The notes under the pieces: model-generated
Told to the model about the DNA's origin: nothing
Seen by the model: the letters and a program-made list of their open reading frames with translations, nothing else
Database searches by the model: none
Shown: piece by piece, positions 1,308 to 13,959 of the stretch
Numbering within the stretch: the first letter of the stretch is position 1
Layout: every line of letters starts with the position of its first letter
Made by a program: the position numbers and the translations under genes
Source: a virus
Virus record (IMG/VR): IMGVR_UViG_3300025759_000743
Span: 1-22,958 of that record
Reading direction: 5' to 3' (one strand)
Length of the DNA stretch: 22,958 bases

Positions 1308-1673
1308 ATGGAACAAGATGAATTAAAAGAACACCGGAACTGGATAGCAGTACAAGTTGCAGTAATGAGACACAAATTCTTTGTAACTAATATGCAACCA
1401 GAAGTTTACAAAGCATACATGAACTCATGGTGTGATGCGTTGCAAGGATACAGCAAGGAAGAAATAACAAAAGCGATAGCACAGTATATCATTGACAGCC
1501 CAAGGACTACACCAAACGAAGGACTCATTCGACAGATGATAATTAAAACTAGGCCAAGAGTTAAGGTAATACCAAAAGAACCAGAGGTAAAAAAAGATAT
1601 ACCTAACCTCGAAGAGCGTAGAAGAATAGCACAAGAAGTAATGCAACAGTACCAAGTTAAGAGGGTTCCATAA
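1308..1673 (+). CDS. Possible replicative helicase loader/inhibitor-like protein (121 aa)
   Basis: The 121-residue protein has a central helical segment, about residues 30-75: a YKAYMNSWCDALQGYSKEE part, an alanine/isoleucine helix, then a proline-containing turn leading to LIRQMI. This order (W...L..y....i..ai..yi......P....l) resembles the N-terminal domain of phage helicase loaders or inhibitors such as SPP1 G39P. The C-terminal part is basic with a charged tail, as in loaders that contact helicase. No helicase gene lies in the window, so the role is tentative. The upstream ribosome site is weak. Confidence 0.45.
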   Translation: MEQDELKEHRNWIAVQVAVMRHKFFVTNMQPEVYKAYMNSWCDALQGYSKEEITKAIAQYIIDSPRTTPNEGLIRQMIIKTRPRVKVIPKEPEVKKDIPNLEERRRIAQEVMQQYQVKRVP

Positions 1674-1685
1674 CCCCCCCTGTTT
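1663..1685 (+). terminator. Weak possible terminator after 1308-1673
   Basis: GGGTT (1663-1667) and AACCC (1672-1676) form a short stem across the stop codon. A C-run to 1680 and then TGTTTT follow. The stem is only 5 bp and the T-tract is short and offset, so termination would be weak. It lies just before a promoter-like region that starts the recombination module. Confidence 0.2.
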
Positions 1686-1710
1686 TGGAACTAAATATAC
1701 GCCAATAAAG

Positions 1711-1732
1711 ACGATTAATTAACGTATGACAA
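1711..1732 (+). repeat. Left copy of inverted 22-nt site flanking the recombination module
   Basis: It begins with the core ACGATTAATTAAC and ends in GACAA. Its reverse complement occurs at 3541-3562 with 19 of 22 positions identical. It lies 53 nt upstream of the exonuclease start, in the promoter region. Likely a binding site for a phage regulator, such as the RHH or AlpA protein in the module. Confidence 0.55.
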
Positions 1733-1735
1733 CCC

Positions 1736-1764
1736 TTGCAACTGCTGATGTTATGTAATAATAA
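1736..1764 (+). promoter_or_regulatory. Possible promoter of the recombination module
   Basis: TTGCAA (1736-1741) is followed after 17 nt by TAATAA (1759-1764). A second box, TATAAT at 1767-1772, is too near the ribosome site (GGAGG 1775-1779) to be useful unless the message has almost no leader. The stretch is extremely AT-rich, which limits confidence. It is the only sizeable gap before the exonuclease gene. Confidence 0.3.
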
Positions 1765-1784
1765 TATATAATATGGAGGATATT

Positions 1785-2354
1785 ATGAATAGAAAAGGTT
1801 TTATCGGTGGCTCTGATGCAGTTAAGATTATGCGTGGGGAGTGGCTAGAATTATGGAAGATTAAAACAGGTCGCATTGAACCAGACAATTTAGATCATGT
1901 ACTACCAGTACAGATTGGCATACTCACAGAGGATTTAAATCTCTCTTGGTTTGAGCGTGAAGAAAATGTATTAATTATTAATCAACAATTACAACTTGAA
2001 AAAGATTTAGATGGTGTAAAGATTAAAGGAACAATTGATGGTGAAGTTGTAAGAGCCACAATTAAATCACTAAAAGATACTAGTCGTTACATTATTGAAG
2101 CTAAACATACTAATGCTTTTAATAATATGAAGAAAGTATCAGAGTATTATCAAGCACAAATGCAATTGTATATGTGGTTAGCAGAAGCAGATAATTGTTA
2201 TCTCTCTGTTATCTTTGGTAATCTTAAATGGGATTGGATGATAGTTCCATACGATGAAAGTTATACCGCAACAGTATTAGATATGATCAAAGAGTTCTGG
2301 GGATATGTTGCAAGAGATGAAGAACCAGACATAAACAGAGGAGAAGGACTATGA
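1785..2354 (+). CDS. YqaJ-type viral recombinase / lambda-like 5'-3' exonuclease (189 aa)
   Basis: This PD-(D/E)XK nuclease probably resects double-stranded DNA so that the annealing protein encoded next can pair strands. Visible motifs: IGGSD near residues 7-11, a glutamate in GILTED (E49), GTIDGEV with the metal-binding aspartate D85, IIEAK with E105 and K107, and the YYQAQMQLYMW helix (about 121-131) typical of YqaJ exonucleases. Length fits the family. I chose ATG 1785 because GGAGG at 1775-1779 is correctly spaced; the upstream in-frame ATG at 1773 overlaps that ribosome site. The stop overlaps the next ATG (ATGA), as expected of an exonuclease/annealing pair. Confidence 0.88.
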   Translation: MNRKGFIGGSDAVKIMRGEWLELWKIKTGRIEPDNLDHVLPVQIGILTEDLNLSWFEREENVLIINQQLQLEKDLDGVKIKGTIDGEVVRATIKSLKDTSRYIIEAKHTNAFNNMKKVSEYYQAQMQLYMWLAEADNCYLSVIFGNLKWDWMIVPYDESYTATVLDMIKEFWGYVARDEEPDINRGEGL

Positions 2355-2809
2355 ATAAACACATGGAGTTATGGAATAAGGTAAGCAAAACTGACCCTAA
2401 GTATATTAAACCAGTAGGTTTTGGGGCGCGTAAGTTTACAGCTATTGATCCGCAGTATCAGGTAAGAAGTATTACCGAACAGTTTGGAGCAGTAGGTGTG
2501 GGTTGGGGTTGGAACTCAACAACAGAATACATTCACTTTAATAATGGTGATGTAGCTGTGGTGTCAGGTGTATCAGTATGGACACACGCAGATGAGAAAA
2601 ATATATTCGGCCCATTTAATGGTTGTCGTAAATTTTTTGATGCTGGCAAGGGTAGACTTGCAGAAGATGCACCAAAGATGGCTATCACTGATGGCCTAAC
2701 TAAAGCACTATCACACTTAGGATTTAATGCAGATGTATTTTTAGGTGAGATGGATGGAAACAAATATGCACAAGATCAGAAAGGAAAAGGTAATGACACA
2801 GGTTGGTAG
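2351..2809 (+). CDS. Rad52/Sak-like single-strand annealing protein (152 aa)
   Basis: A likely phage recombinase that anneals complementary single strands made by the neighbouring exonuclease. Residues 42-56 (TEQFGAVGVGWGWNS) and 104-130 (EDAPKMAITDGLTKAL, then LGFNADVF) match the pattern of phage Sak/Rad52-type proteins, where a KxAxTDGLxxAL helix followed by a glycine turn is conserved. It is shorter than eukaryotic Rad52, as usual for phage versions, and the glycine- and lysine-rich C-terminus may be disordered. It is coupled to the exonuclease by a 4-nt overlap and overlaps the next gene by 17 nt. The exact subfamily (Sak or Sak3) is uncertain. Confidence 0.75.
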   Translation: MNKHMELWNKVSKTDPKYIKPVGFGARKFTAIDPQYQVRSITEQFGAVGVGWGWNSTTEYIHFNNGDVAVVSGVSVWTHADEKNIFGPFNGCRKFFDAGKGRLAEDAPKMAITDGLTKALSHLGFNADVFLGEMDGNKYAQDQKGKGNDTGW

Positions 2810-2975
2810 ACCTCAATCAGATAATAAAAAAATGGTAGCAATTAATCTATCTCTACCGCAAGCAATGCTTGATGCAGTACAAATACACGCAGATTCAATT
2901 GGAGAATCTAAAGGTATGATAATTCGAGCGGCACTAAGACAAATGTTTTTAACACAACAACAAAAGGAAAATTAA
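2793..2975 (+). CDS. Ribbon-helix-helix (CopG/Arc-like) regulator (60 aa)
   Basis: A 60-residue protein with a basic N-terminal arm, a strand (MVAINLSLP, about residues 15-23), and two helices separated by a Gly-Glu-Ser turn, ending in MIIRAALRQMFL. This is the standard ribbon-helix-helix order. Such proteins bind operators as dimers through the paired strand. The start at ATG 2793 has AAGG upstream and places the strand correctly; a longer in-frame start at 2745 would only add residues translated over the annealing gene. It may control the recombination module, perhaps through the inverted sites at 1711 and 3541. That target is inference. Confidence 0.75.
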   Translation: MTQVGRPQSDNKKMVAINLSLPQAMLDAVQIHADSIGESKGMIIRAALRQMFLTQQQKEN

Positions 2976-3167
2976 ATGACACTTGAACCAATGCACAGAT
3001 TACCAAAAGTAATGGAGCTAACTGGCTTATCTCGATCCAGTATATATCTTGCTCTTTCTAAAGGCACCTTTCCTAAACCTATTAAGATTGGTCAGCGCAG
3101 TATTGCTTGGCCTGAGAGTATTCTTATTGAATGGAGAGAAGAAAGAGAAAGAGCAACCAATGGCTGA
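2976..3167 (+). CDS. AlpA-like DNA-binding regulator / excisionase-fold protein (63 aa)
   Basis: The protein shows the AlpA pattern: a RLPKVMELTGLSRSSIYLAL segment (about residues 9-28), then GTFPKPIKIGQRSIAWPESIL and IEWREER. This is a winged helix-turn-helix of the MerR/excisionase superfamily. AlpA proteins act as transcription activators or recombination directionality factors in phages and prophages. No integrase is present here, so a transcription role is more likely. The ATG follows the previous stop directly (TAAATG) with an AAGGA ribosome site, and the end overlaps the next gene by 8 nt. Confidence 0.82.
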   Translation: MTLEPMHRLPKVMELTGLSRSSIYLALSKGTFPKPIKIGQRSIAWPESILIEWREERERATNG

Positions 3168-3540
3168 ATATGATAACACAAACAGAGGTGCAGTATTCTC
3201 ACCAAGAGACACAACAAAGATGGTACTTCAAGGTAAGATAAACTTAGAAGGTAATGACAGAGATGTTATTGTTGTGAGTGATACAACACAAGCTGGTCAA
3301 AAGATAATGAAATTGTATCAAAAGGTTGGTGCTATGTTTACCAATGATAAAGGTGACAACGAGAACAGACCAGACTTTAGTGGCAACATAGATGATTACG
3401 CTACCAATAAAGATATGCGTGTATCAGGTTGGACTAAAGAAAAGGATGGTAAGAAATGGTTGTCTCTTAGTGTTGAAGAGAAACGAGGAGTTGCACCACT
3501 ACCAAATGTTAATCAACTAAACGATGAGATACCATTCTAA
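3160..3540 (+). CDS. Single-stranded DNA-binding-like OB-fold protein (126 aa)
   Basis: Probably a phage SSB-like protein that coats DNA exposed by the exonuclease. The C-terminus ends NDEIPF, close to the acidic SSB tip DDDIPF that recruits partner proteins. The middle alternates strands, and the NRPDFSGNID and DMRVSGWTKE...KKWLSLSV segments (about 69-106) resemble the DUF736-like OB-fold pattern. The start at ATG 3160 lies 5 nt before the TGA of the AlpA gene; the longer frame from 3049 would add a shadow of that gene and is rejected. It is the last gene of the recombination module and is followed by an inverted site and large hairpins. Confidence 0.68.
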   Translation: MAEYDNTNRGAVFSPRDTTKMVLQGKINLEGNDRDVIVVSDTTQAGQKIMKLYQKVGAMFTNDKGDNENRPDFSGNIDDYATNKDMRVSGWTKEKDGKKWLSLSVEEKRGVAPLPNVNQLNDEIPF

Positions 3541-3562
3541 TTGTCGTGTGTTAATTAATCGT
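3541..3562 (-). repeat. Right copy of inverted 22-nt site
   Basis: The reverse complement begins ACGATTAATTAAC and ends GACAA, matching 1711-1732 at 19 of 22 positions. It starts immediately after the stop codon of the SSB-like gene. Together the two copies bracket the five recombination and regulation genes in opposite orientation. Confidence 0.55.
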
Positions 3563-3572
3563 ATTAAATAGA

Positions 3573-3614
3573 CCACAAGCTGTGGGTTTTTAAGTAGCTA
3601 CTTAATTACCCACA
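3573..3614 (+). terminator. Nested hairpins: possible terminator/attenuator
   Basis: Hairpin A pairs CCACA (3573-3577) with TGTGG (3581-3585) and is followed by GTTTTT (3586-3591), like a short intrinsic terminator. Hairpin B pairs TGTGGGT (3581-3587) with ACCCACA (3608-3614) and contains the perfect 16-bp palindrome TTAAGTAGCTACTTAA (3590-3605), with only a TT/TT mismatch between. A and B share TGTGG and exclude each other. This could be a terminator, an attenuator between the recombination module and the next genes, or an operator dyad. Confidence 0.5.
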
Positions 3615-3632
3615 CACCAAATGGAGAAACAA

Positions 3633-3875
3633 ATGAAAATAAAATACTCAAATGAATTACTAACCGAAATACACAAGCTATCAGTTTGGTGGGCAAATAA
3701 AGAAGTAGCTAGGTATTTAAAGCTAACTGAAGGACAGGTGCGTTATGCTTTATATAAATTAGAACCTAATCCATTAATTCCAGAAAGACAGAAAACATTA
3801 TTTGTTCCTGAGCAAGCTGAACAAAAAGTTACTCACACTGAAAGCCTTCTAAATTTTTTTGGAGGTGGGAATTAA
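3633..3875 (+). CDS. Small HTH-like phage protein (80 aa)
   Basis: The 80-residue protein has a helical N-terminal half: LSVWWANKEVARYLKLTEGQ followed by VRYALYKL (about residues 14-41), consistent with a helix-turn-helix that recognises DNA. The rest is polar and ends in a glycine-rich tail. I place the start at ATG 3633, because GGAG at 3623-3626 is well spaced; the in-frame ATG at 3621 overlaps that site. It is the first gene after the nested hairpins and may be regulated through them. The HTH assignment is by pattern only; no named family is recognised. Confidence 0.6.
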   Translation: MKIKYSNELLTEIHKLSVWWANKEVARYLKLTEGQVRYALYKLEPNPLIPERQKTLFVPEQAEQKVTHTESLLNFFGGGN

Positions 3876-4043
3876 ATGACTTCTTCTCAACAAGTAATTG
3901 ACAGGCTCAAACGAGTAGCTAGTATTATACAGCTAGACGCAGTAGAAAAAAATAGAACAGGAGTTAGAAACAGAGGAGATGAGTTACTAGCTTTACTAAT
4001 TTTATTAGAAGAAAAATTAAAGGAAGATAACAATGAAAGCTGA
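3876..4043 (+). CDS. Short helical hypothetical protein (55 aa)
   Basis: A 55-codon frame starts at ATG 3876, directly after the preceding TAA, behind a strong GGAGGTGGG ribosome site at 3861-3869. It ends in TGA 4041-4043, overlapping the next gene by 11 nt. The product is highly charged and almost entirely helical, ending in a leucine-rich, lysine/glutamate-rich helix (LLALLILLEEKLKEDN) suggestive of a coiled coil or a partner-binding helix. The family is not recognised. Its strong ribosome site and exact fit between neighbours support it. Confidence 0.65.
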   Translation: MTSSQQVIDRLKRVASIIQLDAVEKNRTGVRNRGDELLALLILLEEKLKEDNNES

Positions 4044-4335
4044 ACCAATATTTATGACACGCAGAGACAAAGTATTACACGAAGCCAACCAATTAATTAG
4101 TCAAGATAGAAACAATCAGTACGGAGATCCTCATATTAATATGCTAATGATTGCAAGAGCTTGGTCAGAGGTACTTGATCATACTGTACAAACGTGGCAA
4201 GTACCTATTATGTTAGCACAAATGAAACTAGCTAGGATATCAAGCGGTGGGTACAAAGAAGACTCTATCGTAGATGCTATAGGATACCTAGCATTGGCAA
4301 GTGAGATCAAAGATAAAAAGGTTTCCGAATTATAA
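4033..4335 (+). CDS. DUF6378-like phage protein (100 aa)
   Basis: Residues 14-92 match the pattern I know from DUF6378 phage proteins: a helix before DRNNQYGDPHINM, then ARAWSEVL, a PIMLAQMKLARI helix, and a GGYKEDSIVDAIGYLALASE ending. The family is common in phages, and its conserved acidic and histidine positions hint at a helical fold related to nucleotide-processing MazG-like proteins. That link is my inference, and no activity is established here. The start at ATG 4033 overlaps the previous gene by 11 nt. The end overlaps the following regulator by 35 nt. Confidence 0.72.
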   Translation: MKAEPIFMTRRDKVLHEANQLISQDRNNQYGDPHINMLMIARAWSEVLDHTVQTWQVPIMLAQMKLARISSGGYKEDSIVDAIGYLALASEIKDKKVSEL

Positions 4336-4582
4336 AGATGAGACTTATGTTACAGGGTCGTATGAAAAACTTATCGAGCAGATGGTTAATCATCGAAGCA
4401 CACTTGGTATATCACAAGAAGAACTTGCAGATAGAATTGGGTGCGCTTCATCACTCATTCATAAGTGGGAGCAACACAAGCGAGTGCCATCAGGCTTCTT
4501 GTTTACGTGTTGGTTAGACGCTCTTGGCTGTGAGATCACGATCAACTTCAAAGAAACTAAGGCAAGAGTCAGCAATATGTGA
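4301..4582 (+). CDS. XRE-family helix-turn-helix repressor-like protein (93 aa)
   Basis: Residues 21-75 form a Cro/CI-type DNA-binding domain: LIEQMVNHRSTLGISQEELA, DRIGC, SSLIHKWEQHKRVPS, then a hydrophobic helix, WLDALGCEI. The order ISQEELAxxIG...SxIxKWE is the classic XRE signature. It likely regulates transcription as a dimer. The frame opens at GTG 4301, 35 nt inside the previous gene, without an obvious ribosome site. An in-frame ATG at 4382 would cut into helix 1, so the upstream start or coupled translation is more likely. The C-terminal tail after the domain is short and basic. Confidence 0.75.
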   Translation: MRSKIKRFPNYKDETYVTGSYEKLIEQMVNHRSTLGISQEELADRIGCASSLIHKWEQHKRVPSGFLFTCWLDALGCEITINFKETKARVSNM

Positions 4583-4853
4583 AGCTTGTAATGTTGATTC
4601 AGATTTATTTGTAGCAATACTAGCTAATATAGAACCAGTAAGACATTACATTATATGTTTAGACTGCTATCAGAGGGATACATGGCAAACAAAAATAAAC
4701 TCAAAGGAACTTACCACGAAAACTGGTTCGTCAAATGGCTTACAAAAATTGGCATCGAAGCCAAGAGAGTACCGCTCAGCGGTGCACTCGGAGGAGAATA
4801 CTCAGGTGACATCCACCTCAACATCAACGGAAGAAAACTGGTGGGAGAAGTAA
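4524..4853 (+). CDS. Putative zinc-ribbon protein overlapping the next gene (109 aa)
   Basis: This frame fills the gap between the XRE gene and the nuclease and carries two CxxC pairs: C19-x2-C22 (CEAC) and C45-x2-C48 (CLDC), spaced as in a small zinc ribbon. The start could be TTG 4524 or GTG 4530; neither has a good ribosome site. Residues 54-109 are read from DNA that also encodes the nuclease and have the Ser/Thr-rich look of a shadow frame. The true gene may therefore be a shorter protein broken by a frameshift, or a real out-of-frame overlap of about 170 nt. I saw no canonical slippery heptamer. Function unknown. Confidence 0.4.
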   Translation: MAVRSRSTSKKLRQESAICEACNVDSDLFVAILANIEPVRHYIICLDCYQRDTWQTKINSKELTTKTGSSNGLQKLASKPREYRSAVHSEENTQVTSTSTSTEENWWEK

Positions 4854-5023
4854 AGTACAGGGATAAGTCCAGTTTCCCTAGCCCATTCACAGTGCTAACA
4901 GGAAGAGACATAGCATTCTACAAAAGAAAAACTGGCAAACCACAGACACTTGTAATACTAAGTGGCGAAGAATTTGAAAAACTAATGGAGAAAGATAATG
5001 AAAGCAACACAACAACAATTTAA
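4682..5023 (+). CDS. PD-(D/E)XK endonuclease, possible Holliday-junction resolvase-like (113 aa)
   Basis: The protein has the compact nuclease pattern: an N-terminal glutamate in GTYHENWFVKWL (E13), then SGDIHLNINGRKLVGEVKYR with the metal-binding D43, E56 and K58 (D-x12-E-x-K). The basic KRVPLSGAL segment between them resembles archaeal Hjc-type resolvases and phage Hjc-like nucleases. It could process recombination or replication junctions, in keeping with the nearby exonuclease/annealing pair. ATG 4682 is chosen because GAGGGA lies 6-11 nt upstream; an in-frame ATG at 4655 lacks a ribosome site. It overlaps the next gene by 26 nt. Confidence 0.72.
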   Translation: MANKNKLKGTYHENWFVKWLTKIGIEAKRVPLSGALGGEYSGDIHLNINGRKLVGEVKYRDKSSFPSPFTVLTGRDIAFYKRKTGKPQTLVILSGEEFEKLMEKDNESNTTTI

Positions 5024-5342
5024 AATATCAGTCGAACAAGAAATATTATATGGTAAGCTACTAAAAGAATCAGCTATTGCTATGGGTCAGGTAGGTAGAT
5101 TACCAGAGTTTAAAGTTTATCAAGCAACAGACAAATTAAACAATCAGAAAGCACAAGCGTATCAGATAATAAAAAATACTGGTGTAATAAATGCTTTACA
5201 ATTAGCAGAGAAAATGAACTTATCTAAACCTGATCACGCTAGAAATATTATTCAGAAATTAATTAGAGATAATAAAGTTGAAAGAGTTAAAAGAATTATA
5301 AGAGATTTCTATCCATACTCAGGGTATAAGATAAAACAATGA
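4998..5342 (+). CDS. Winged-helix-like hypothetical protein (114 aa)
   Basis: ATG 4998 follows GGAGAAAGATA, a good ribosome site inside the end of the nuclease gene. The first half is helical and polar. Residues 53-110 look like a winged helix: QAYQIIKNTGVINALQLAEK, then NLSKPDHARNIIQKLIRDNK and a basic beta-wing-like VERVKRIIRDFY...GYKI end. It probably binds DNA or protein in regulation or replication; I do not recognise a named family. Its stop overlaps the next start (ATGA at 5339-5342). Confidence 0.6.
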   Translation: MKATQQQFKISVEQEILYGKLLKESAIAMGQVGRLPEFKVYQATDKLNNQKAQAYQIIKNTGVINALQLAEKMNLSKPDHARNIIQKLIRDNKVERVKRIIRDFYPYSGYKIKQ

Positions 5343-5539
5343 CTGACCTTACAATAGAAAAATTTTTAAGACGAATGGATAAAGCCAACGTAGCTAACAA
5401 TGGCTTTCCATACGACAGAGTAATAACAAGCGATAAGTTCTTAGTTAAGTTAGGTCGAGAGGTGGGTGACTTAGTTAACCTAGTTCTTATACTTAATGAT
5501 GAGCTGGAAAGAATAAGAAAAAATTCTATTGATATTTAA
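5339..5539 (+). CDS. Hypothetical protein, last gene of the rightward block (66 aa)
   Basis: The 66-residue protein starts at ATG 5339, overlapping the preceding stop. It has a basic, polar N-terminal half and a hydrophobic helix near the end (VGDLVNLVLILNDELERIRK). The family is unknown and no catalytic motif is visible. It is the final rightward gene; its last 14 nt overlap the end of the leftward gene 5526-5744. No terminator separates the two converging operons, so read-through RNA from both strands could meet here. Confidence 0.6.
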   Translation: MTDLTIEKFLRRMDKANVANNGFPYDRVITSDKFLVKLGREVGDLVNLVLILNDELERIRKNSIDI

Positions 5540-5744
5540 ATTTTTCTCTGACTTTAATACACTGGCAGTCTATAAAAAATAAATCACCATCTTTTTTTTC
5601 AATAGCATTAGCCATAGAATACACAGCAGTCTTAATGTTAGCTTCACATTTTTCTCTGCTTGACTCAGCTACAGGTGGAACCCAAGCACGACACATCTCA
5701 CCAGTAGCAAACGTAGCACAATACACCATAGCCATAATCCACAT
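5526..5744 (-). CDS. Small membrane or exported protein (72 aa)
   Basis: The ATG at 5744 overlaps the stop of the phosphoesterase gene (TAATG). A TTG at 5753 is a weaker alternative. The N-terminus is strongly hydrophobic (MWIMAMVYCATFATG) and is followed by a polar stretch with four more cysteines: one soon after the hydrophobic part (EMC), one in the middle (REKC), and a C-x-C pair near the C-terminus (DCQC). It looks like a signal peptide or single membrane anchor with a short periplasmic domain that could form disulfides. No clear lipobox is seen. Being last in the late operon, it could be lysis- or envelope-related, but there is no direct evidence. Confidence 0.6.
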   Translation of the reverse strand: MWIMAMVYCATFATGEMCRAWVPPVAESSREKCEANIKTAVYSMANAIEKKDGDLFFIDCQCIKVREKFKYQ

Positions 5745-6847
5745 TATAAACAAACCTTTATACGACTAACTTCACCCTCTTGTTTATGATATGTAATCCC
5801 CTGCATCTGTGACCTACTGCTGTAAGCATGGCTAGAAGCATAGGAGTCTTTACCTGTTACAGCTCTGAGTTGCTCAACAAGTACGCCACCTATCTCACGC
5901 ATCATTGTGTGGTGTAGGTGTCCAGTAAAATAAAATCTGTGTTTAGTTCTGCCCCATATCTCAGGCCAAGCATCAGCCATATGCAACACAAGCCTATCTG
6001 CTTTTGCTTTGTCTCCGTGGTGCGCGGCAATCATGACACTTCCAAACTCATGCACGAAGAAATCAGCAGCGGTTTGTTCCACAGTCACTCTAGTATTATT
6101 TTTGTAACGCTCTGCCATTGCAAACATCACAGCCAAATAAGAAGTCTCGTTGTGATTACCACGCAATACCCTGCATATAACTTGCTCATGTTTTTGCAAC
6201 GCACAATCAATCGCAGATGCCAACGCAGATATTGCACACCTCAGTGCATAAAAAAATCTTTCGGATACATCAAGTGGATGTTTACTTCTAGGAGTTTGTG
6301 CGTTGTTGTCATCAGCGTGGGTTAAATCACCAACATCTAATATCAAAGCATACTTAGAATTAGGTGAGCTAGATACACACTTAGCCATACCAGTTTTAAT
6401 TCTATCTACTGCAATGTCAGAGTTATACTCAGCACCTGTCTCTTCAGCGTGCGCTCTCATGCCTATGTGTGCATCAGCTATAGGGTAGAGTGTAAGTAAG
6501 TTGTCCTCAGAAAAGCTTGGGGATTTTATTATTGGGCAAAGAACAATACCATTTATTATATCTCGTATTGATTCCGCTATATCATTGGTATCAATCTTAT
6601 CTATTTCATTTCTAAAATATAAACTAACGTCGTCAGTCTTAATCCAGCCAGAGTGTACAGCATTTATGTTAGCCATACCTGTTTCAGTCATGGCATACTT
6701 AATACCATCATCAGCTTCTTCATATTTTTTTGCTGAATTAATTCTGTGTCTTAGAGCAGAGCGACTAATGCCTAAAGCCTTTGCCGCTTTGACTTGACTT
6801 CCGTATTTAACAACAGCATCAAGTGCTTCTTGTTGTTTTGATGTCAC
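5744..6847 (-). CDS. HTH-metallophosphoesterase fusion protein (367 aa)
   Basis: Residues 12-40 form a helix-turn-helix (GSQVKAAKALGISRSALRHR). Residues 118-330 hold a full calcineurin-type metallophosphatase set: DAHIG (D125, H127), GDLTH (D174), RGNHNE (N231, H232), AAHHGD (H276, H277) and TGHLHH (H310, H312). Such enzymes use two metal ions to cut phosphodiesters; Mre11/SbcD-like nucleases share the motifs, and HTH fusions of this type occur in T7-like and marine phages. It may be a DNA-end nuclease or nucleotide phosphodiesterase. The start is GTG 6847, overlapping the stop of the upstream microprotein gene (GTGA). It is translated with the late operon. Confidence 0.85.
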   Translation of the reverse strand: MTSKQQEALDAVVKYGSQVKAAKALGISRSALRHRINSAKKYEEADDGIKYAMTETGMANINAVHSGWIKTDDVSLYFRNEIDKIDTNDIAESIRDIINGIVLCPIIKSPSFSEDNLLTLYPIADAHIGMRAHAEETGAEYNSDIAVDRIKTGMAKCVSSSPNSKYALILDVGDLTHADDNNAQTPRSKHPLDVSERFFYALRCAISALASAIDCALQKHEQVICRVLRGNHNETSYLAVMFAMAERYKNNTRVTVEQTAADFFVHEFGSVMIAAHHGDKAKADRLVLHMADAWPEIWGRTKHRFYFTGHLHHTMMREIGGVLVEQLRAVTGKDSYASSHAYSSRSQMQGITYHKQEGEVSRIKVCL

Positions 6848-10041: not shown

Positions 10042-10413
10042 TTATCCTTCTAGTGTTGCTATGCGAGCGAGTGCCGCATCTAATGCTGTTGATAATTCTT
10101 GTACTGCTTTAGTTAATACTGGTATTAATGCTGCTTCTGCTACTTCTTGAGAGCCATCTTCTCTGTCATCCCACAATTTAAAACCATCTTTAATGCCGCT
10201 ATCAGCATCTATAGCGGTCTTAACTTCTTGAGCAATAAAGCCGTGGTTAGTGTTTGAGTTTTTAAAGACATCTGTTGAGCCAGCTTTATAAGCTCTAAAT
10301 GTTTCGGGAAGTTCTCCAAGATTTTTATACTTAAAGGTACGAGGTTTTAAAGCATTAATAAATGACAACCCTGCTGTAGAATCTACAATGTCTTTTTTGT
10401 AGCGTTCATCTGA
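10042..10413 (-). other. Peptidase S74 / intramolecular chaperone domain of the fibre
   Basis: The domain opens with SDERYKK, has the PRTFKYKNLG and NHGFIAQEV landmarks, and ends in a short helical tail (ALDAALARIATLEG). In the family a Ser-Lys pair cleaves the chaperone from the mature fibre after trimer folding. Cleavage before S1183 would leave a mature fibre of 1182 residues. Residues match by pattern; cleavage is inferred. Confidence 0.88.
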
Positions 10414-13400
10414 TACTGTTGACCATGTTGTATTACCGTGTGCTGCTCTAATATCATTAGCACCAACCCCAAGTGTTGTGTAACTAGCTTCTGCGGCTAT
10501 ATCATGACCAAAACCATTTGCGCTACTTGTACCGACTGCTGTTGTATCAGTGTAAGAACCTACGAGAGTATTTTCGCTACCTGTAGTAGTAAGTGTGCTA
10601 TGTGAGGCTGAGTTATAACCTATATAAACATTTGCGCTACCTGTGGTGACTTGACTTCCAGCACCATAACCATGACATGTGTTATAGTCTGCGTCTGTAA
10701 GATTACTTAAAGCATAAGCTCCACTTGCGGCATTGCTATGTCCAACAGTGCAATCTTCTAGTGCCTTGTATCCAACAGCAGAGTTGCCAGCAGCAGTCGT
10801 GTTATTGCCTAATGCAAGGTAGCCAACAGCTACGTTATTAGCACCCGTTGTGTTGTCAAACATTGCTTGATATCCCACCGCAACATTAGTTCCAGCGGTA
10901 GTATTTTTATCTAAAGCATTAGTACCGACAGCAGTGTTTTGACTCCCTGTTGTGGTGTAATACATTGCCGCAGTTCCCAAGGCAACATTCTGTGTTCCAG
11001 TCGTGTTTGTAAATAAAGCATCTCTGCCGACTGCTGTGTTATGGTCTGCTGTAGTGGTATTTGCACCTGCGCCCTTACCAAAGAAAGAGTTGTCATCTCC
11101 TGTAGTTAAATCTGTACCAGCACTCAATCCAACAACAGTATTCTGTGCGCCTGTTGTGATTGCATCTCCAGCTTCAGTTCCAATAGCTACGTTTCCTGAC
11201 GATGTGGTAGCAGAGGCAAGAGCAGCAACTCCTAATGCTGTATTGTTTTGACCAGTTGTAAGCGCACCTCCTGCATTGTACCCCACAATCGCATTCCAAC
11301 TACCTGTAGTCATAGCATCACCTGCAAGACCACCAATTAGCGTGTTTTGTACGCCTGTGGTTACTGCATGACCCGAATTATACCCCACTGCTGTGTTGTT
11401 AGACGCTGTGGTGTTTGCGGTTAATGCCCTACTTCCTAAAGCGGTGTTATACGATCCCGTCGTAGTGCCACTTAAAGACCAATACCCTAAGGAGGCATTT
11501 TCTAAACCTGTTGTAATCGCATCACTTGCTAGTGCACCCACTGCGGTATTTTGTGCACCTGTAGTGTTTGCTCCTAAAGTTTCAAAACCAACTGCTGTGT
11601 TATTACTTGCCGTAGTATTAGCATACATAGCACCCTTACCTATTGCTGTGTTACTTGCGCCTGTACTGTTAGTCTGTAGTGTCTGTCTACCAACTGCTGT
11701 ATTGTTATCTGCTGTAGTATTTCCGTGTAAAGCACCCCAACCCACACCTGTATTGCTAGCACCTGTGGTGTTACTTGCTAATGACTGACTAAAGGCTGTG
11801 TTATAAGCACCTGTAGTGTTAGCATATAAAGCACCTTTTCCAACTCCTGTATTATAAGAAGCTGTGGTATTCGCCTGTAAAGCATCCTTTCCAACTGCAA
11901 CATTATCCGCACCAGTCGTAATAGAATCACCAGCAAGACCACCGATTAGGGTGTTGTTTGTGCCTGTGGTTACTGCATTACCTGCGGCAAAACCTACTGC
12001 TACGTTATAGTTGTCAGTAGCCGATGTGAAGTTTTGTGTACTTAAAGCTCCGTATCCAAGAGCAACTGCTCTGCTACCTAATGTATCAACGGCTAAAGAG
12101 TCATAACCTAGTGCTACATTATAATCAGCATCAGTAAGTGCATCACCAGCTAGGCCACCGATGAGGGTGTTTCTTACGCCTGTGGTTACGTTTAGACCTG
12201 AGTTATGCCCTACTGCAACATTAAAAGTATCTGTAGAAGTTGTAAAGTTTTGATTCCCTAGTGAATTATAACCTACTGCTACAGATTTACTACCTTTAGT
12301 ATCACCACTTAAAGCCCATCTACCTATAGCTACATTGTAATCTGCATCTGTAAGGGCATCTCCTGCGGCAAATCCCATTAACGTATTCTCTACACCAGTC
12401 GTTATTGCATAACCAGCATCGTATCCAATGGCTGTATTTCCAGCATTTACATCCCCTGCGTTTTGAGTAAGCAATGCTCTATACCCAACCGCAGTAGACC
12501 TAGAGGCAGTATCTTCTGTACTTAAAGCTCCATAACCTATTGCTGTATTGTTATCACCAGTAGTAATCGCAGTACCTGCTTCGTCACCCACAGCCACGTT
12601 GTAGTTACCGCCAGATGCTATTGAGTTACCTGCGTTAACACCTGCTCTAAAGTTAGATGTACCTGCTGAAGCAGTAATAATATCTGCACCATCTGCAAAG
12701 GTAACGTCTGCCGCAAAGTTAGCCGCACCATCTACATCTATAACATCAAGGTTACTTATTCCATCAATGTCTATGTTGCCAGATATGTCTAAACTTGCCG
12801 CCGCTATCTCACCAGATGCAGTAAGAGTAGTTATGTTAGGATTAGCACCACTACCAGCTAGCGTTGCCATGTCAGCAATTACAGTGCTAGTAGCAAGTAA
12901 ACTTAAATCCTCTACGATTGCACTTGTTGCTAGTAAATTTAGGTCAGTAACTATGTCGCTTGTTGCCAAGGTATTTAAATCACTTACAATGTCAGATGTG
13001 GCTAGTGTGTTTATATCACTTACTATATCAGAGGTAGCTAAGAGATTAAGGTCAGATACTATATCAGCAGTAGCTAAAGTATTTAGGTCAGACACTATGT
13101 CTGAAGTTGCTAAGAGAGCCATGTCAGCAACTATATCTGTGGTAGCTAGTATGTTTAAGTCAGCAACAATAGCACTTGTAGCTAGTGTATTCATATCAGC
13201 AATAACATCTGATGTAGCAAGCAATGCCATGTCAGCTATTACATCAGTAGTACCAAGCAATGCCATATCAGCAATAACATCACTAGCTGCTAAAGCATTT
13301 ACATTAGATATTGCACCTGCAACAGCCGTTACATTACTAGCAACTCCAGCTACTGTTGTTACATTACTAGCTATACCAGCAACTGTTGTAACATTAGCTG

Positions 13401-13959
13401 CTATACCTGCTGTTGTGTTTATATTAGCTGTAATTGCAGAGAGAGAGTTAACGTTAGCTATAGTAGGGCCAACTTCTGCTGCGCCTGTACTCGCATTAAA
13501 GCCTAGAACAGTACCTTTTCTTGACGCTACAAGCGGTAACTCCATACTAACTGCTGTATCATCATCTGCTAGGTGTAAAGCTCGATCAATAGTATCATCA
13601 TTATCAGCTTGAATTGCTATAAATTTATCTAGCTCTGTGTTTAATGTACTAATAGCAAATGGCCCAGATGCAGGAAAGTCTGTTGTTCTAGCTAATGCTA
13701 TTGATCTTGTTATAACTACTGTACTGCCACCACTTATCCCAGTTACTGTATTACCAGATGTTGTGTTTATTGTCCCTGTTGTTCCGTCACCGCCTGATAC
13801 TGTATAGTGTGTTGCTATTGTTTTCTTAGTACCATCTACATAAAAATTAAGATCAGCTTCAGCGTAAAACTCAAACGGCACAGTAAATGCTGTTTGACTT
13901 GCGCCTTCATTAACCGAATAAGATATACGCGGTGTGTTTTCTGATAAACTAATAGTCAT
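10042..13959 (-). CDS. Tail fibre protein with tandem repeats and S74 auto-chaperone (1305 aa)
   Basis: The adsorption fibre of the virion. Residues 1-135 resemble the T7 gp17-type N-terminal domain that attaches to the tail (FEFYAEADLNFYVDGTKK, RTTDFP, DKFIAIQADNDDTIDRAL). Then come 10-residue repeats (about 169-220), twelve 12-residue repeats (223-366), and about 40 repeats of about 17 residues of the NTAVGYxAL type (about 450-1135), likely a trimeric beta-roll shaft. Residues 1183-1305 are an S74 intramolecular chaperone: S1183 and K1188 in SDERYK are the expected self-cleavage pair. The order after the internal virion genes matches T7. GAGGT precedes ATG 13959. Confidence 0.9.
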   Translation of the reverse strand: MTISLSENTPRISYSVNEGASQTAFTVPFEFYAEADLNFYVDGTKKTIATHYTVSGGDGTTGTINTTSGNTVTGISGGSTVVITRSIALARTTDFPASGPFAISTLNTELDKFIAIQADNDDTIDRALHLADDDTAVSMELPLVASRKGTVLGFNASTGAAEVGPTIANVNSLSAITANINTTAGIAANVTTVAGIASNVTTVAGVASNVTAVAGAISNVNALAASDVIADMALLGTTDVIADMALLATSDVIADMNTLATSAIVADLNILATTDIVADMALLATSDIVSDLNTLATADIVSDLNLLATSDIVSDINTLATSDIVSDLNTLATSDIVTDLNLLATSAIVEDLSLLATSTVIADMATLAGSGANPNITTLTASGEIAAASLDISGNIDIDGISNLDVIDVDGAANFAADVTFADGADIITASAGTSNFRAGVNAGNSIASGGNYNVAVGDEAGTAITTGDNNTAIGYGALSTEDTASRSTAVGYRALLTQNAGDVNAGNTAIGYDAGYAITTGVENTLMGFAAGDALTDADYNVAIGRWALSGDTKGSKSVAVGYNSLGNQNFTTSTDTFNVAVGHNSGLNVTTGVRNTLIGGLAGDALTDADYNVALGYDSLAVDTLGSRAVALGYGALSTQNFTSATDNYNVAVGFAAGNAVTTGTNNTLIGGLAGDSITTGADNVAVGKDALQANTTASYNTGVGKGALYANTTGAYNTAFSQSLASNTTGASNTGVGWGALHGNTTADNNTAVGRQTLQTNSTGASNTAIGKGAMYANTTASNNTAVGFETLGANTTGAQNTAVGALASDAITTGLENASLGYWSLSGTTTGSYNTALGSRALTANTTASNNTAVGYNSGHAVTTGVQNTLIGGLAGDAMTTGSWNAIVGYNAGGALTTGQNNTALGVAALASATTSSGNVAIGTEAGDAITTGAQNTVVGLSAGTDLTTGDDNSFFGKGAGANTTTADHNTAVGRDALFTNTTGTQNVALGTAAMYYTTTGSQNTAVGTNALDKNTTAGTNVAVGYQAMFDNTTGANNVAVGYLALGNNTTAAGNSAVGYKALEDCTVGHSNAASGAYALSNLTDADYNTCHGYGAGSQVTTGSANVYIGYNSASHSTLTTTGSENTLVGSYTDTTAVGTSSANGFGHDIAAEASYTTLGVGANDIRAAHGNTTWSTVSDERYKKDIVDSTAGLSFINALKPRTFKYKNLGELPETFRAYKAGSTDVFKNSNTNHGFIAQEVKTAIDADSGIKDGFKLWDDREDGSQEVAEAALIPVLTKAVQELSTALDAALARIATLEG
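10555..12612 (-). repeat. About 40 degenerate 51-nt repeats coding NTAVGYxAL units
   Basis: In-frame repeats of mostly 17 residues carry a core of Asn-Thr-Ala-Val-Gly followed by an Ala-Leu or Ala-Gly pair and an Asn-Thr-Thr turn. Some units are longer, with Asp-Ala-Asp or Phe-Thr inserts. Larger blocks also recur, such as LIGGLAGDALTDADYN. The units are diverged at DNA level, so this is an old, folded array and not a fresh expansion. Confidence 0.85.
12862..13293 (-). repeat. Twelve 36-nt tandem repeats coding LATSDIVSDLNT-type units
   Basis: Residues 223-366 of the fibre are twelve consecutive 12-residue units with a Leu-Ala-Thr-Ser-Asp-Ile/Val-Val/Ile core and Asp-Leu/Met near the end. 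The DNA copies are diverged but keep register without gaps. The regular Leu/Ile/Val spacing suggests a coiled or beta-helical shaft segment. Confidence 0.85.
13300..13455 (-). repeat. 30-nt tandem repeats coding NVTTVAGIAS-type units
   Basis: Residues 169-220 are about five 10-residue units built on Asn-Val-Thr-Thr-Val-Ala-Gly-Ile-Ala-Ser, a repeat known from many phage tail fibres. They adjoin the 12-residue array directly. Confidence 0.8.

Follow-up and report, generated by a model that had tools for sequence, protein, structure and literature searches.

The window analysed here covers an entire IMG/VR virus record, a linear 22,958-base fragment in which early genes lie on the plus strand to about position 5,540 and are followed by structural genes on the minus strand. 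Judged by the annealase, two pelagiphages, Lederberg EXVC029P and HTVC035P, are the closest isolates, with just 41–45% identity. The clade described below is a group of uncultivated phages that are probably marine. The early region contains a recombination operon bracketed by two inverted copies of a 22-nt site, termed U (upstream) and D (downstream), with the following features:

1663–1676, plus strand: stem GGGTTCCATAACCC, terminator-like, where the preceding gene ends
1711–1732, plus strand: upstream site U, ACGATTAATTAACGTATGACAA, with the pattern ACGATTAATTAAC(N4)GACAA
1736–1764, plus strand: TTGCAA-N17-TAATAA, a candidate sigma-70 promoter for the exonuclease operon that lies 3 nt past U, assigned by reading
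1785–2354, plus strand: YqaJ/RecE-like exonuclease, 189 aa (the ORF could start at 1773)
2351–2809, plus strand: Rad52-type single-strand annealing protein, 152 aa
2793–2975, plus strand: ribbon-helix-helix (RHH) protein, CopG/RHH_1-like, 60 aa, candidate site binder
2976–3167, plus strand: AlpA-like regulator, 63 aa (PF05930, 9e-17)
3160–3540, plus strand: SSB-like protein, 126 aa, with the C-terminus DEIPF
3541–3562, minus strand: downstream site D, the inverse of U, reading TTGTCGTGTGTTAATTAATCGT on the plus strand (reverse complement ACGATTAATTAACACACGACAA)
3573–3590, plus strand: terminator-like hairpin CCACA-AGC-TGTGG followed by GTTTTT
3581–3614, plus strand: palindrome TGTGGGTTTTTAAGTAGCTACTTAATTACCCACA, a strong predicted RNA hairpin that overlaps the terminator-like stem
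3621–3875, plus strand: first gene past the hairpin, an 84-aa ORF (ATG also at 3633)
4301–4582: Cro/CI-like helix-turn-helix protein (HTH_3), present in the whole clade

The elements TTAATTAA and GAC denote positions within the site sequence. The annealase matches human RAD52 by profile (E 0.0009), and its structural model (pLDDT 67) has RAD52 8rjw as the top Foldseek match (E 6e-5, TM 0.50). The RHH protein matches Pfam RHH_1 with an E value of 0.0015 and 18.8 bits, slightly below the cut-off of 20.5; its low-confidence model (pLDDT 65) consists of an extended N-terminus and then two helices, and a profile search against the PDB gave no useful match. The exonuclease gene overlaps the start of the annealase gene at its end, and its 189-aa product compares with about 250–275 aa in most diverged relatives, the C-terminal part being seemingly absent. 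The preliminary description counted exactly five genes between the sites, which is correct for the window, but most relatives with two sites have four and lack AlpA.

U and the reverse complement of D share 13 exact bases and agree at 19 of 22 positions overall, as first described, and a repeat search lengthens the match to 25 nt at 84%. Placement of U in the promoter region and of D just past the last stop was likewise borne out, as the first base of D directly follows the SSB TAA. The 13-nt core occurs twice in the whole record, with no third copy. When a position weight matrix was applied to the window and to three relatives (G001, G002 and G003, records of 25.7, 33.3 and 33.6 kb), each gave two strong matches of 28–35 bits against a next-best match below 10. 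Thus, the search for scattered copies that had been proposed at the outset returned only two per genome, and a scattered or genome-wide motif is ruled out. A host-genome motif is rejected as well, because only 6 scattered matches were found in 257 Gb of bacterial genomes.

A blind count is a poor guide to whether such a pair is more than a chance likeness of AT-rich intergenic stretches, since an inverted pair of 19/22 appeared in 10 of 60 simulated AT-rich sequences of 6 kb and is not rare on that scale. With the comparison confined to the intergenic stretches on the two sides of the operon, 13 exact bases and 19/22, each allowed in either orientation, turned up in only 1 of 1,500 simulations apiece. 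Both copies are, moreover, conserved in 15 further contigs, so that chance similarity is refuted (we regard it as extremely unlikely) and the site pair is real and above chance.

Related contigs were gathered from IMG/VR by exonuclease, annealase and motif searches. The motif GATTAATTAAYRYRYGACMA is found in 24 contigs, of which 21 belong to the clade, two to an unrelated phage (L106/L108) and one (L104) is a chance match within a coding gene. In the unrelated phage (L106/L108, with L122), the site and the same right flank, GTATTAAA, are present at L108 3048–3075, with a 515-aa primase-like gene on one side and a 57-aa ORF on the other; its relatives L123–L128 lack the site. An Rfam search of the window returned no match, and a literature search on inverted repeats or promoters of pelagiphages returned no paper that matched on every term.

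Among the 21 clade contigs, 15 contain both copies, always inverted and always at the same location, and the 13 distinct site-to-site segments (1,620–1,848 bases) share a single placement and arrangement. U is present in 16 of 18 related contigs that cover the region with the exonuclease operon; three others (L020, L021 and L101) end or are rearranged before U. In L101 (1–5272) and L021 (1–4126), two recombination modules lie in series, in the order RHH-SSB...RusA, followed by a further exonuclease of 265 aa, a protein resembling Erf and another SSB; these tandem modules are either a duplication or rearrangement, or an assembly chimera.

The sites are conserved beyond their surroundings. Between the window and four diverged members (L004, L007, L016 and L019), identity at third codon positions is 63–65% for SSB and 57–58% for the preceding gene, while both sites are 92–96% identical and the downstream hairpin region 91–96%. 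The intergenic stretches that hold the sites are 91–96% identical between genomes, and the sites themselves reach 92–100% where the adjacent SSB and TerX third positions are at 57–65%. Because both neighbours of D have diverged, selection is the simplest cause of its conservation. For U in L004 and L007, recent exchange along with the well-conserved exonuclease gene may be an alternative cause.

The preliminary description held that loss of one site beside an intact module would speak against its proposal, and such losses do occur. In L017 and L018 the operon is complete, but a block of some 43 nt including U has been deleted, and in L030 the whole operon and U are present while a different sequence replaces D. 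Each copy therefore persists without the other, D alone in L017 and L018 and U alone in L030; the two are not needed together, so each copy must have some function by itself. In L030, a long GAGAGTGCG...CGCACTCTC stem occupies the place of D 3' of SSB (2997 onward), followed by the usual hairpin.

Two inverted sites that bracket an operon could delimit a cassette that is transferable or invertible, or could be conserved linkers that provide homology for module swapping. Identity falls sharply past the downstream hairpin, where alleles of the gene at 3621 swap, and the rearranged tandem modules of L101 and L021 lie near such a junction, which speaks for this explanation. The remaining observations point the other way: a single orientation is seen in 13 of 13 distinct segments and no contig is flipped; the mosaic junctions lie within the module (exonuclease, RHH/AlpA and annealase) rather than at the sites; and no invertase- or transposase-type recombinase is found among the proteins scanned at 1308–6847. 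In about 40 diverged phages with exonuclease, annealase and SSB, no inverted pair rises above shuffled controls, and either copy can be absent. The earlier alternative of a transferable or invertible cassette is thus not upheld, nor does the site pair travel with the module and mark its exchange borders; given the single-site losses, the absence of inversion, the inner junctions and the modules without a pair, the cassette explanation is largely refuted, and we hold it to be quite improbable. The mosaic structure of the operon is illustrated by comparison with L012 and L015, where identity jumps from 87–88% in the exonuclease to 100% in the annealase and 82–84% in RHH, with AlpA missing. The genes after the hairpin (3621–4043 in the window) are exchanged between relatives, with alleles of the gene at 3621 only 35–40% identical in most, and constitute an allele-exchange hot spot.

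The neighborhood of each site suggests a role in transcription. At U, the candidate promoter lies 3 nt away, and its TAATAA is followed by a ribosome-binding site. A promoter scan at the operon chose the slightly different TTGCAA-N18-AATAAT, and promoter-like matches in the region are not above chance. The promoter core is kept in L017 and L018 although U is deleted, and so the sequence suggests a promoter plus accessory site, with U as the accessory site beside the candidate exonuclease-operon promoter. At D, a weak promoter-like TTGTCG-N17-TTAAAT can be read, followed by the hairpin at 3581–3614 (−16.7 kcal/mol, z −4.6). The terminator-like stem and the larger hairpin are mutually exclusive, because the 3' half of the stem is common to both, and a transcript from the candidate promoter at D would start in the 5' arm of the terminator and could form the larger hairpin only. 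L016 (about 6600–6640) has the exact reverse complement in place of the palindrome's 22-nt core. This natural inversion of a hairpin is the sole true inversion seen and is unrelated to the site pair.

The two copies might instead pair as RNA, since an operon transcript that began upstream would join its two ends in a 22-bp duplex. All three mismatches between U and D in the window would be G-U pairs on the plus strand, and 93.9% of the cells pair across six distinct genomes. Compensatory changes are nevertheless seen at 0 of 22 pairs in these genomes and pairing is broken at three columns, which makes the duplex weak as an explanation. U also lies upstream of the likely promoter and may not be co-transcribed with D, and L017, L018 and L030 keep a single copy; we judge RNA pairing improbable. 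A further proposal, that the sites are associated with an origin or a nuclease, for example in loading or starting the phage exonuclease/annealase system, would fit two specific copies beside recombination and SSB genes. No iterons or DnaA-like cluster were noticed, however, single copies are dispensable, and diverged relatives of the same enzymes lack the site, leaving this proposal very improbable.

The preliminary description proposed that the RHH or the AlpA-like product could bind both sites and loop the DNA. The sites, intergenic, constrained and limited to two per genome, do look like specific regulatory elements of this operon, and RHH tracks them: its gene is present in exactly the same 21 clade contigs as the site, and an RHH profile run over the other fetched loci, including carriers of diverged modules, found none. 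The association is suggestive only, because all of these contigs form one clade, and the co-occurrence may be due to shared ancestry. In L106/L108 the site is present and RHH was not detected within 6 kb. The gene for AlpA is limited to the window and three related clade contigs, so that most site-bearing contigs are without it, and three AlpA relatives elsewhere (L159–L161) lack the site. AlpA is thus disfavored as the binder, and as a required binder it is ruled out. Binding of a regulator to both sites is the best supported reading, with RHH rather than AlpA as its predicted candidate.

The sites could also be operators or promoter elements read by some other factor: AlpA, the helix-turn-helix protein encoded at 4301–4582, a regulator from outside the fragment, or the host polymerase (as UP-element or −35 context). 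TTGTCR-N17-TTAAAT at D resembles a weak promoter, U is located where UP elements and activators sit, the HTH_3 protein is encoded clade-wide, and L106/L108 carry the site and right flank GTATTAAA without RHH. Against these points, AlpA is missing from most site-bearing contigs, a general host element should recur in a phage genome that has only two copies, and bacterial genomes contain just the few scattered matches given above. Another reader of the sites is possible, though we doubt it.

We give roughly even credence to a model in which the sites are two operators (about 20 bp, GATTAATTAAYRYRYGACMA) of one regulon, with RHH as the most likely predicted binder. A phage-encoded transcription factor, most likely the CopG-like RHH protein encoded between the copies, would bind these operators. 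U adjoins the −35 of the putative promoter for the exonuclease-annealase-RHH-SSB operon, and a protein bound there would regulate the recombination operon and with it the RHH gene. D lies ahead of the next operon's hairpin leader and would overlap the weak −35-like TTGTCG, and binding at this position would govern the transition to that operon. The observed parts of the model are the restriction to two copies, their constant placement and orientation, the constraint on them, their independent loss and the co-occurrence with RHH; the promoters, the identity of the bound protein, the direction of regulation and any loop are inferred. That the operon in L017 and L018 runs without U counts against the model. 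More elaborately, RHH bound at both inverted sites might form a loop of 1.6–1.85 kb that insulates the operon and balances expression of the next one, an undescribed phage regulon that we consider rather unlikely.

Several known systems bear comparison with the operator model. Repressors of the CopG/Arc/omega type have operators at their own operon and at a second promoter; like the present locus, they combine a small RHH protein whose gene belongs to an operon with short specific sites that mark the boundaries of two transcription units. Such systems differ among themselves in how the operators are spaced and oriented, and RHH dimers usually read dyads. The present site has neither a clear dyad of this type nor a recognizable tandem heptad, and the RHH match falls below the Pfam cut-off. 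A dyad ATACGTTAAT-N11-ATTAACGTAT over U is perfect in four contigs (L003, L006, L012 and L030) but was rejected, as only 7–8 of 10 left-arm positions match in the window, L010 and L013; the dyad TTAATC-G-GATTAA at D was rejected since U lacks it. In the hexamer that follows AATTAA, variants retain a YRYRYR alternation.

In lambdoid phages, the red (exo-bet) genes belong to early operons under OL/OR operators, a layout similar to that of the exonuclease-annealase operon with operator-like sites upstream. Here, in contrast, there are no site arrays of the CI/Cro type, and a single site of about 22 bp stands at each operon end, the second past the last gene. The modules of Lederberg EXVC029P and HTVC035P also place a nuclease before an annealase that is 41–45% identical to that of the window, but differ in having no inverted site pair around them, other flanking genes and no RHH match. 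Inversion cassettes of the Hin/Gin type similarly have two inverted sites (about 22–26 bp) that bracket a segment; at the present locus no invertase is seen nearby, the relatives show no flipped orientation, and one site or the other can be missing. An inverted repeat that brackets genes in the manner of a mobile cassette can thus be a regulatory pair, each copy of which is lost without the other. Control of recombination genes in such phages is little known, and this motif has the specificity needed for predicting a two-site regulon from the DNA sequence. Elsewhere in the window, a 1,305-aa late protein (10042–13959) contains long arrays of 51-nt coding repeats.
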